DNA of 38,070 nt from Pseudomonadota bacterium (GTDB lineage Bacteria > Pseudomonadota > Alphaproteobacteria > Rhizobiales > Pleomorphomonadaceae), in assembly GCA_018262505.1 (NCBI GenBank), contig JAGSYV010000016.1, forward strand, positions 1-38,070. The letters run 5' to 3'. The position numbers and the translations under genes were made by a program. The notes under the pieces are model-generated. The model saw nothing but the letters and a program-made list of their open reading frames with translations, had not been told where the DNA came from and ran no database searches. Positions within the stretch are counted from its first letter, which is position 1; each line of letters starts with the position of its first letter. This document shows, in pieces, positions 22,562 through 25,970 of this stretch.

Positions 22562-23713
22562 TCAGAGGATCGAGCGATAGAGCGCTTCGATTTCCGGCAC
22601 GCTGGTTTCGCGCGGGTTGCCACCGGTGCAGACGTCGGCAAAGGCCGCCTTGGCGAGCGCCGGAATGTCCTCGGCCTTGACGCCGACTTCGCTCAGCTTG
22701 GCGGGAATGCCGACATCGGTGGACAACTTCTGCACAGCCGCTACCGCCGCCTTGCGGGCTTCGGCGATCGGCATGGATTCGGTGCCCTTGACGCCGAGAG
22801 CAGCAGCAATGGCCCGATACTTCTCACCGGTGAAGTCGGCGTTATAGGCCATCAGCGTCGGCAGCAACACGGCGTTGGCGACGCCGTGCGGCGTGTTGTA
22901 GAAGGCGCCGAGCGGATGGGCCATGCCGTGCACGAGACCGAGACCGACGTTGGAAAAACCCATGCCGGCCACGTACTGGCCAAGCGCCATGTCCTCGACG
23001 CCCTTGGCATCGCCCGCGCAGGAGGCGCGCAGCGAGCGGCCGATGATTTCGATCGCCTTGATGTGCAGCGCGTCGGAAAGCTCCCAGGCACCCTTGGTGA
23101 TGTAACCCTCGATAGCGTGCGTCAATGCGTCCATGCCGGTCGCCGCCTTGAGCGGCTTCGGCATGGTGGCCATCAATTCGCTGTCGATGATGGCGACCTG
23201 CGGAATGTCGTGCGGGTCGATGCAGACGAACTTGCGGCGCTTTTCCTCATCGGTGATGACATAGTTGATGGTCACCTCGGCGGCGGTGCCGGCGGTGGTG
23301 GCCAGGGCAATGATCGGCACCGACGGCGTCTTGGTGGGCGCAAAACCCTCAAGGCTGCGCACGTCGGCAAATTCCGGATTGTTGGTGATGATGCCGATCG
23401 CCTTGGCGGTATCCTGCGGCGAGCCGCCGCCGATGGCGACGAGATAGTCGGCCTTGGCTTTGGCGAAGGCGGCGACGCCTTCCTTGACGACAGCGATGGT
23501 CGGATTGGGCATCACCTTGTCGAACAGCTCATAGGCCAGACCGGCCGCGTCCAGGAGGCTGGTGACCTTGGCCACCGTGCCGGCCTTGACCAGCACCGCA
23601 TCGGTGACCACCAGCGCCTTCTTGTAGCCGCGACGCTGTACCTCGCCGACCAGCTCGGCACGGGCGCCAGCGCCGAAATAGGACGTCTCGTTGAGAATCA
23701 TGCGATGGGACAT
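22562..23713 (-). CDS. fucO: Lactaldehyde reductase (iron-dependent group III alcohol dehydrogenase)
   Basis: The 383-residue protein reduces L-lactaldehyde to 1,2-propanediol with NADH, or acts in the reverse direction on propanediol. It resembles E. coli FucO closely from memory: RMILNET at the start, GGGSPQD at 96-101 for NAD, NYVITDEEKRRKFVC, and KAATGMDALTHAIEGYIT. The four metal ligands are Asp195, His199, His262 and His276. GGAGG stands eight bases before the ATG at 23713. No other fucose or rhamnose gene lies nearby, so it may serve in handling of other aldehydes or diols. It has its own terminator and a large upstream region. Confidence 0.92.
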   Translation of the reverse strand: MSHRMILNETSYFGAGARAELVGEVQRRGYKKALVVTDAVLVKAGTVAKVTSLLDAAGLAYELFDKVMPNPTIAVVKEGVAAFAKAKADYLVAIGGGSPQDTAKAIGIITNNPEFADVRSLEGFAPTKTPSVPIIALATTAGTAAEVTINYVITDEEKRRKFVCIDPHDIPQVAIIDSELMATMPKPLKAATGMDALTHAIEGYITKGAWELSDALHIKAIEIIGRSLRASCAGDAKGVEDMALGQYVAGMGFSNVGLGLVHGMAHPLGAFYNTPHGVANAVLLPTLMAYNADFTGEKYRAIAAALGVKGTESMPIAEARKAAVAAVQKLSTDVGIPAKLSEVGVKAEDIPALAKAAFADVCTGGNPRETSVPEIEALYRSIL

Positions 23714-24072: not shown

Positions 24073-25377
24073 TTAGTCGAGCGCTCGCTGGCGGGTTTCC
24101 GCATCGATCTGCGAGGCGGCAATCGCGGCAAAGATCAAAAGCACGGCGAACAGGGCCACCGCCGCACCGAAGCTGCGGGCGATCAGAAGCGACAATAGCG
24201 ACGGTGCCAGCAGCCCGCCGAGCCGGGCCATGGCGCCAGCGGCGCCCATGCCGCTCGCCCGCGCCGCCGTCGGATAGAGTTCCGGCGTATAGGCGTAAAG
24301 CGCGCCCCACGTGCCGAGCAGCGCAAAGCTCATCAGAAGGATCGCCGTTGCCACAAGGCTCGCGTTGCCGGCAATGACGAACAGCACGCAGCCAGCCGCC
24401 GACAGCAGCAGAAAACCGATCAGAGTCGGCCTGCGCCCGATCCGCTCAACACCCCAGGCCGCGAGTGCATAGCCTGGCAGTTGAGCCAGCGCGACGACGA
24501 CGAGGAAGCCATAGCCGCGGACGAATCCGAATCCCTCGCCTGCGAGCCGCGCCGGCATCCATGTGAAGATCCCATAATAGCTGAGCGACACCAGAAACCA
24601 GACGGCGAGCATCAACAGCGTCCGCTTTCTCAGCGCAGGGGACAACAGCCGGACGGTTCGAGGTGCTTCACCGGCGACGAGCGGCTCGGAAAGCGGCGTT
24701 TTGCCATTGGCCATCAAAACGCGGTCGATGACGGCCCGCGCCTCGTCACCCCGCCCCTTGCTGAGAAGATAGAGTGGCGATTCCGGTACCATCAGGCGCA
24801 GCCAAAAGCCGATCAGTGCCGGGATGGCGGTTACGAGAAGGATGGCGCGCCAGGCATCCGCCAAGCCGGCTGAGGCCGCGGCCCAGGCGGCGAGCGCCAC
24901 TACCACCGTGCCGATCGCCCAGAAAGCCTCCAGCATTACCAACCAGCGCCCGCGCCGGTCCGAGGGCAGGAACTCGGCCATCATGGCGTAGTCGACCGGC
25001 AGTGTGCCACCCACGGCAACCCCGGTGAGAAAACGCGCAACGAGCAGCAGCGCGAAGTTTGGCGCGAATACCGAAGCAAGACCGAACAGGCCATCGCACG
25101 CCACAGTCACCAGCAATACCCGTCGGCGGCCGATGCGATCGGCAATCCGACCGAACAGCGCCGCGCCGATCATCATGCCGAGGAAGAACAAGGTGCCGGT
25201 CTGCAGCGCCTCGGGCACTGTCAGGCCAAAGCTGGCCGCGATCGATGGGGCGGTAAAGCCGACGGCCAGGACCTGCATGGCATCGGCAGCCCATACGAGG
25301 CCAAAGATGCCGAGAAGTCGTCGCTGAAACGGGCCGGTGCCGGCCTGATCTAGGGCGGAAACGATGGCAACCGGCAT
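24073..25377 (-). CDS. MFS transporter, sugar/aromatic acid symporter type
   Basis: The 434-residue protein has twelve predicted helices with a longer central loop (about residues 205-245). Motif A-like GRIADRIGRRRVLL follows helix 2, and VPESPLYLLSKGRGDEA after helix 6 is typical of the sugar porter, aromatic acid:proton symporter and NiaP-like groups. TPELYPTAARASGMG in the second half supports this. Substrate cannot be deduced. GAGG stands about eight bases before the ATG at 25377. It shares orientation with fucO but lies about 360 bases upstream of it, so a common transcript is doubtful. Confidence 0.88.
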   Translation of the reverse strand: MPVAIVSALDQAGTGPFQRRLLGIFGLVWAADAMQVLAVGFTAPSIAASFGLTVPEALQTGTLFFLGMMIGAALFGRIADRIGRRRVLLVTVACDGLFGLASVFAPNFALLLVARFLTGVAVGGTLPVDYAMMAEFLPSDRRGRWLVMLEAFWAIGTVVVALAAWAAASAGLADAWRAILLVTAIPALIGFWLRLMVPESPLYLLSKGRGDEARAVIDRVLMANGKTPLSEPLVAGEAPRTVRLLSPALRKRTLLMLAVWFLVSLSYYGIFTWMPARLAGEGFGFVRGYGFLVVVALAQLPGYALAAWGVERIGRRPTLIGFLLLSAAGCVLFVIAGNASLVATAILLMSFALLGTWGALYAYTPELYPTAARASGMGAAGAMARLGGLLAPSLLSLLIARSFGAAVALFAVLLIFAAIAASQIDAETRQRALD

Positions 25378-25512
25378 GGCGATACCTCAAATCGAGGGTT
25401 GGTATGCCTCTTTCATAGACCAAAGTCGCAGGCAGGAAAACCAAACCTTTACCGAACCTGCAACTTCCTTAGGCACGCCAGGACCGAACGCGGCTTCGTG
25501 ATCGCTCCAGGG

Positions 25513-25542
25513 GTGACTAATACTAAAGTCGTATGCTATAAT
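25513..25542 (+). promoter_or_regulatory. Sigma-70-type promoter of orphan transcription unit
   Basis: A perfect -10 element TATAAT stands at 25537-25542, with GTGACT (25513-25518, four of six to TTGACA) 18 bases upstream. Transcription would start near 25549. This is the best-looking -10 in the window and it faces no known gene. Confidence 0.6.
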
Positions 25543-25582
25543 CCTGGACAAGATAAATTGACGATCGAGGTAAGAAGCGATC

Positions 25583-25735
25583 ATGAGTGATATGTCACAG
25601 GACGCCGTCAAGTGTCCGTTCATCCGGTGCCGTCACCCCGTACCGCGCTCCTGGAGCGAAGGATGCGCTTCGAGCTGCTTCTTCCTTCGCAAGGAGCGCC
25701 GACGGGTTACTGTCCGCCATACCTACGACTTCTAA
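25583..25735 (+). CDS. Possible 50-residue Cys/Arg-rich peptide, unknown function
   Basis: From the ATG at 25583 (AAGAAG about eight bases upstream, with GAGG a little further) the frame encodes 50 residues. It contains CPFIRC near the start (about residues 11-16), further cysteines at about 28 and 32, and the basic stretch RKERRRVTVR before a short end HTYDF. No membrane helix or signal is evident. The TAA overlaps the first bases of the terminator stem, so a ribosome finishing this frame would keep the terminator from folding, as in attenuation. The frame is small and GC-rich, and nothing else proves translation. I cannot assign a function. Confidence 0.3.
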   Translation: MSDMSQDAVKCPFIRCRHPVPRSWSEGCASSCFFLRKERRRVTVRHTYDF

Positions 25736-25759
25736 GGAGGGGTTCGCCCCTCCTTTTTT
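25734..25759 (+). terminator. Strong intrinsic terminator
   Basis: AAGGAGGGG (25734-25742) pairs perfectly with CCCCTCCTT (25747-25755) around the very stable TTCG tetraloop, followed by a run of T to 25759. It is the clearest terminator in the window and ends the orphan unit that starts near 25549. Confidence 0.92.
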
Positions 25760-25894
25760 ATTATAGCGCGACACCTGCCCGAGAGAACGGCGGCCTCACA
25801 TTGCCGAAGACAATCGGCAGCTTCGATGCGCGCCGATAACCAGAGATATCGTTGCTGAACAACGTGGTGGTGGGCTGGCCCGATTCAGTAAGTT

Positions 25895-25970
25895 TGGTGA
25901 GCGCGATGGGATTCGAACCCATGACCCCATGATTAAAAGTCACGTGCTCTACCGACTGAGCTACGCGCTC
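25895..25970 (-). tRNA. tRNA-Lys (UUU anticodon), CCA encoded
   Basis: The minus strand from 25970 to 25895 folds into a 76-base cloverleaf. The seven-pair acceptor stem is GAGCGCG with CGCGCTC, followed by discriminator A and an encoded CCA. TAGCTCAG opens the D-arm. The anticodon loop CTTTTAA has anticodon TTT, so it reads lysine codons. The T-arm is ATGGG-TTCGAAT-CCCAT. A -10-like TATACT lies about 37 bases upstream on the same strand. Confidence 0.97.

Follow-up and report, generated by a model that had tools for sequence, protein, structure and literature searches.

The short transcription unit at positions 25,513 to 25,759 of the window (the whole stretch of 38,070 nucleotides that was analysed; contig C16 of an assembly of 5.28 Mb in 257 contigs) would best be read as a protein gene, neither an RNA gene nor an attenuator, which shares a regulon with other genes for very small proteins in the genus Pleomorphomonas. 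We put the probability of both parts holding together at about 75%. Taken separately, it is almost certain, judging from the pattern of sequence conservation, that the frame encodes a protein of 50 amino acids, and it is highly probable that the genes for this protein and for two others of 70 and 47 amino acids are controlled as one regulon. The features of the locus are:

25513..25518, + strand: -35-like promoter hexamer GTGACT (promoter scan; TGACT invariant in 12 of 12 species)
25520..25534, + strand: promoter box ATACTAAAGTCGTAT of the form ATAC-N7-GTAT, presumed operator of a dimeric regulator (alignment; recurrence before small genes)
25534..25542, + strand: extended -10 element TGCTATAAT (TG-N-TAT invariant in 12 of 12 species)
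25572..25577, + strand: putative ribosome-binding-site-like AAGAAG (read from the sequence; AGAAGG in most relatives)
25583..25735, + strand: coding sequence of the 50-aa four-cysteine protein including the stop codon (uninterrupted and free of indels in all 12 aligned species)
25645..25699, + strand: long stem inside the 50-codon frame (predicted fold)
25734..25755, + strand: intrinsic terminator-like hairpin overlapping the stop codon (terminator scan; in 5 of 13 loci)
25419..25433, + strand: variant box copy ACCAAAGTCGCAGGC on the MFS side (direct repeat, 80% identical over 15 nt)
24073..25377, - strand: divergent MFS transporter gene (Pfam MFS_1 and Sugar_tr)
25895..25970, - strand: tRNA-Lys (Rfam)

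An earlier note on this DNA had described an orphan transcription unit, and the unit does look stand-alone. It is situated between the divergent MFS gene, which adjoins the 50-aa gene in each of the 12 genomes with that gene, and the antisense tRNA-Lys. The next gene on the same strand, again an MFS gene (26277), lies past the terminator and the tRNA; it was seen downstream in 7 of the 11 genomes examined and not within the 1.5-5 kb covered in the other four. The TATAAT reported at 25537 is indeed there (25537-25542), separated by an 18-nt spacer from GTGACT at 25513-25518; TG precedes the second hexamer and 10 of 12 hexamer positions match, the full TATAAT being present in 4 of 12 species as read by eye from the alignment. 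Between 25000 and 26600 one promoter-like site was observed against a mean of 0.5 in shuffled sequences, and the hairpin at 25734-25755, with the nine pairs, TTCG loop and T-run described before, was the single terminator-like site (shuffle mean 1.4).

The surroundings gave two further observations. Two genes away from the small gene lies a lactaldehyde reductase gene (22565-23713, - strand; NCBIfam NF007911, 679.8 bits, cut-off 537); the accessible text of PMC12595884/PMC7486931 ties the VtlR-controlled small proteins of Brucella to fucose use, which is perhaps a coincidence. In Pleomorphomonas carboxyditropha (G003) the tRNA-Lys beside the locus appears interrupted: its 3' part aligns, after which the sequences diverge (L004, from about 1900), and no tRNA was called across 3.3 kb of this locus, so that integration at tRNA-Lys is possible. 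The locus DNA matched 192 plasmid records, and the 20 matches listed cover the tRNA end of the query only; with the 50-aa protein as query 13 plasmid records were returned, the best with an E value of 2, and no match was found in viral contigs.

The 50-codon frame was confirmed at 25583-25735, with its TAA at 25733-25735 overlapping the first two bases of the terminator stem and the RKERRR stretch at residues 36-41. In a DNA search the locus matched 12 of the 14 genomes of the same genus (its own included; G007 and G008 had no match) and none of 86 others. The frame is open across the same 50 codons without indels in all 12 aligned species, and variable columns number 15, 8 and 40 of 50 at codon positions 1, 2 and 3. 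Pooled pN/pS over the 12 species is 0.14, compared with 1.76, 4.23, 1.92, 0.23 and 5.47 in the other five frames; the reverse frame with the value of 0.23 is interrupted by one or more stops in every species. Mean identity is 91% in the 30-column promoter, 70% in the leader, 86% in the ORF and 35% after the stop, and the encoded sequence is conserved along the entire length of the protein. Conservation of the frame is far in excess of chance. The earlier note had considered the frame possibly coding; the homologue search and the analysis of synonymous changes bear this out, with the frame conserved and selection acting on its codons. The true start is perhaps codon 4, since codon 1 is ATC in G004, and codon 4 is ATG or TTG in all 12 species.

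The protein has the consensus MSDLSQDAVKCPFIRCRHPVPRAWSEGCASSCFLLRKERRRITVRHTYDF. Its four cysteines (C11, C16, C28 and C32) and eight further residues are invariant in 12 distinct proteins, including a homologue of 51 aa in G008 that is encoded at a different locus and is 36% identical; CRHP-PR-W-EGC is invariant with this homologue included as well. The latter, which was first reached through the box search described below and not through a protein search (it starts 74 nt downstream of a box), retains C11, C16, R17, H18, P19, P21, R22, W24, E26, G27, C28 and C32 and lacks the RKERRR stretch. A profile that includes it (A6) finds the family in 13 of the 14 Pleomorphomonas genomes, the exception being G007. 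In the other 383 sampled genomes of the order the same profile gave 13 partial matches (E 7.6e-4 to 0.0089), and profile A2 gave partial matches in 13 of 297 genomes (E 6.9e-4 to 0.0095). All out-of-genus matches were partial and were taken as noise; these searches scored 17 (A6) and 23 (A2) first-look candidates per genome, so that distant relatives can escape them. No family in Pfam, NCBIfam or PHROGs reached threshold for the 50-aa protein, which does not match DUF1127 (PF06568); the sole sub-threshold Pfam match was Se_S_carrier (E 0.053). A profile search of the PDB returned six TFIIB chains (E 0.28-0.31), which were taken as chance. Four conserved residues of ligand type, as expected of a small zinc-binding protein, are present, and the predicted folds are of low confidence (mean pLDDT 52.8 and 48.7). 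As far as searched, the family appears to be new, with relatives found in one genus only.

The core of the promoter box, ATACTAAAGTCGTAT, sits in the spacer between the -35 and -10 elements of the 50-aa gene. When ATACTAAAGTCGTA was searched with at most one mismatch in the 14 genomes of the genus, 35 matches were found (17 exact, 18 with one mismatch), compared with 3 for the reversed pattern. Every one of the 17 exact matches lies upstream of the 50-aa gene (9, at 57-63 nt) or of a gene for a 70-aa protein (8, at 121 nt). The 18 matches with one mismatch precede the 50-aa gene (3), the G008 homologue (1), the 70-aa gene (3), a 47-aa gene (4), an anfH-like gene (4) and other sequences (3), the matches in G009 and G012 having been allotted by coordinates. 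The three other sequences appear unrelated, and the reversed-pattern control suggests about three chance matches. Because orthologous promoters are not independent, the number of independent events is far smaller than 35. The distance between box and start codon is 57-63, 121 or 182 nt, the spacing between box and -10 element varies between genes (by eye), and the 7-nt middle of ATAC-N7-GTAT is conserved here. In the literature searched, the box sequence was not found in any of four spellings.

The 70-aa protein, which starts MSRFAPTTAT, belongs to a family present in 13 of the 14 genomes of the genus (e. g. G000:C199:28685-29015, L075, L125), with weaker relatives in 15 more genomes of 12 other genera among 100 searched. 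A box with 0-2 mismatches lies upstream of the gene in all 13 genomes of the genus, 12 of them seen in the upstream stretches compared and G009 through the genome-wide box search; upstream of the out-of-genus relatives it is absent (5-7 mismatches in the 12 of 15 examined). Pfam gave no match for the 70-aa protein itself. A paralogue in G003 has a box copy with 4 mismatches and a match to DUF1127 below threshold (E 0.029). The 47-aa protein is rich in arginine (MFAQAPLNRTFRESRAVERG...) and has no NCBIfam match; about 80 nt upstream of its gene the box reads ATACGAAAGTCGTAT, an almost perfect palindrome (G000:C148:30584-30597, L135; G010 C7; G012; G005 C45). No match to the 50-aa or to the 70-aa gene turned up in G007.

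Further copies of related sequence were seen. Towards the MFS gene, at a distance of 103 bp from the promoter box, lies a variant box whose core ACCAAAGTCGCA is exact in 9 of 12 species. ACCAAAGTCGCATCGGC is conserved in two species (L066 in G006, L073 in G004) upstream of a gene which we take to be that of a sulfide:quinone oxidoreductase. Both copies are leads only, since the looser 12-mer ACYAAAGTCGYA shows no enrichment, with 16 matches in 5 genomes versus 14 for the reversed pattern. In G007, AGACTAAAGTCGTA is found at C23:223326-223339 (L112), upstream of what is presumably a glucose-6-phosphate dehydrogenase gene.

The box also precedes a nifH-type gene in G003, in G012 and twice in the window's own assembly (G000 C202 and C221; promoter loci L122, L139, L140, L141 and L172). 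In G012 the operon is anfHDGK, with the NifH-type protein, AnfD, AnfG and AnfK above the NCBIfam cut-offs, and the other three anfH-like genes were judged from the N-terminus alone. TAATACTAAAGTCGTGGCACG is invariant in the four promoters and the bases immediately upstream of it vary; a -24 element alone would account for its last seven bases. The 15-nt sequence TAATACTAAAGTCGT, common to these promoters and that of the window, lies directly against the -24 element. TGT-N10-ACA does not occur in the anfH-promoter stretches examined. The four promoters are homologous and may represent one event. Pleomorphomonas has nitrogen-fixing members. A wider regulon is conceivable, albeit rather unlikely, in which one dimeric regulator would couple the 50-, 70- and 47-aa proteins to the iron-only nitrogenase operon anfHDGK. 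In such an as yet undescribed regulon the role of the four-cysteine protein would be that of a novel small helper or regulator, called upon when the cell changes to molybdenum-free nitrogen fixation or encounters the same metal or redox signal. If true, this would place a layer of control on the iron-only nitrogenase besides AnfA.

The box could also be nothing but a strongly conserved form of core promoter, shared without any common regulator. At the 50-aa gene it follows a -35-like hexamer and abuts the extended -10 element, and the lack of enrichment of the looser 12-mer points the same way. Yet the 14-mer is specific, all its exact matches standing before two small-gene families, and its varying distance from the start codon, its nearly palindromic form at the 47-aa gene and its position beside a -24-type promoter at anfH all speak against this explanation, which we consider improbable.

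About equally improbable is that the regulator is LsrB/VtlR and that the gene set is the VtlR small-protein regulon as it occurs in Pleomorphomonas, with an altered box. According to the accessible parts of PMC12595884 and PMC7486931, VtlR/LsrB directly activates genes for small proteins and the AbcR RNA in Brucella and Agrobacterium, through a box given as CAATGCAGCCATGCA or GCAT-N3-TG-N3-T; in Rhizobiales lsrB forms an operon with trxB (PMC11975290, accessible part). As would be expected for lsrB, the window's own assembly has a trxB-LysR pair with a candidate ar15/AbcR-like RNA downstream (G000:C179:19665-22012; L138, L169), and similar sequences lie at the equivalent place in G012 and G008 (L170, L171). 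Furthermore, CAATGC-N3-CATGC, which resembles CAATGCAGCCATGCA, stands before relatives of the 70-aa gene in G097 and G058 (by eye). However, the ar15 match (28.8 bits) is below the cut-off of 40, and in 8 of 14 control genomes, too, the same search gave matches under its cut-off. Neither the trxB/LysR loci (three genomes) nor the AbcR-like locus has a site with fewer than 4 mismatches to our box, and the AbcR-like promoter of G008 has a GCAT/ATGC-type sequence instead (by eye). In the window promoter, read by eye, ATACTAAAGTCGTA stands in place of the VtlR/LsrB box. LsrB/VtlR was considered as the regulator and is not favoured.

A third alternative is a non-coding or dual-function small RNA in which the frame is incidental or secondary. 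The nested stem at 25645-25699 is present, with 8+8 pairs plus 2 inner pairs and hence slightly larger than the 15 pairs claimed, and the whole transcript, terminator included, folds better than dinucleotide shuffles (z -4.13, none of 200 as good). When protein and codon usage are preserved in the shuffling, the window ORF by itself scores z -1.94; across the 12 species the values range from -2.5 (G003) to +1.86 (G004), and most others are near 0. In the alignment 83.3% of the cells of the long stem are paired; the figure is 37-54% for versions slid by 1-3 columns, a difference to be expected, as one of the aligned sequences supplied the stem in the first place. In shuffled alignments it is 82.1%, and 42 of 500 reached the observed value. 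Pairs changed on both sides number 2 in the stem (1.5 in shuffles), and in the RNAalifold consensus, whose covariation term is 0.06, 3 of the 50 predicted pairs differ on both sides. In Rfam the tRNA-Lys is the only family in the window at the gathering cut-off. With E values up to 10, 25380-25900 yielded STnc290 alone (E 8.7, 14.8 bits against a cut-off of 60), over the terminator. The free small RNA proposed earlier is not supported by these results: there is no Rfam family at threshold and no covariation beyond that of shuffles, and codons are what selection acts on. The test set by the earlier note, conservation of stems or frame in related genomes, comes out in favour of the frame and gives no support for the stem. 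We regard an RNA function as quite improbable; a reading of sequence alone can mistake the imprint of a coding region for a structured RNA.

Attenuation, in which a ribosome at the junction of stop codon and terminator would set read-through into a downstream gene, was also raised earlier, as was an arginine/ornithine-type leader cut off from its gene. Among 13 loci, stop codon and terminator stem meet in five, namely the window and four relatives; in the remaining 8 a simple scan reaching 160 nt from the stop gave no terminator-like site. With a precedent in the ribosome-dependent attenuation of a Sinorhizobium meliloti DUF1127 gene through a small ORF (PMC12218461, accessible part), such a leader is nevertheless highly improbable here, contradicted as it is already by this lack of conservation, and further by the absence of a constant gene downstream on the same strand, by the antisense tRNA-Lys that comes next in the window and by conservation along the whole protein.

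To return to the protein gene with a shared regulon, a likely mechanism is that the genes for the 50-, 70- and 47-aa proteins are switched together by a dimeric regulator, possibly one of the LysR type, that binds in the stretch separating the -35-like hexamer from the -10 element; the divergent MFS gene may share the switch through its variant box. The LysR type is suggested by the ATAC-N7-GTAT form of the box, and at 25520-25534 T-N11-A lies within dyad symmetry, as in LysR-type operators. The form also fits other dimeric regulators, and we hold the assignment as a tentative one, somewhat short of an even chance. A combination of a nifH promoter with a LysR regulator was not found in the literature searched. 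The less sure step is the role of the 50-aa protein (CX4C-X11-CX3C), which may be a cytosolic adaptor based on zinc or thiols that acts on a partner while the signal of the regulator is present; we would give this slightly less credence than the LysR assignment. The analysis adds a small-protein family without relatives found outside one genus, and a concrete DNA box that would tie scattered tiny genes into one circuit.

The locus resembles several known systems in part. Like attenuator leader ORFs such as that of S. meliloti duf1127, the frame is short and, in 5 of 13 loci, ends at a terminator, but the terminator is not conserved, no constant gene follows and the entire protein is conserved. 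With AnfA sites, for which the accessible part of PMC7294313 gives the consensus TAC-N6-GTA, it shares TAC...GTA half-sites and a related box in four anfH-like promoters. AnfA was rejected as the regulator because of spacing and position: the spacing here is 7 instead of 6 nt, and the anfH copies read GTG on the right and abut the -24 element. The promoter of the small gene is sigma-70-like. In BenM/CatM operators the consensus is ATAC-N7-GTAT with T-N11-A, as far as the accessible text of PMC6628147 goes, and the window box has the same form; in contrast to that system, no benzoate or catechol genes were identified nearby and the 7-nt middle is conserved. The VtlR/LsrB regulon differs in its box, which is reported in the accessible sources as CAATGCAGCCATGCA and here reads ATACTAAAGTCGTA, and in its proteins, the 50-aa protein having four cysteines and no DUF1127 match. 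What the two have in common is the arrangement, i. e. one regulator-type box before several scattered genes for very small arginine-rich proteins, and VtlR-like sequences precede the out-of-genus relatives of the 70-aa gene (by eye).
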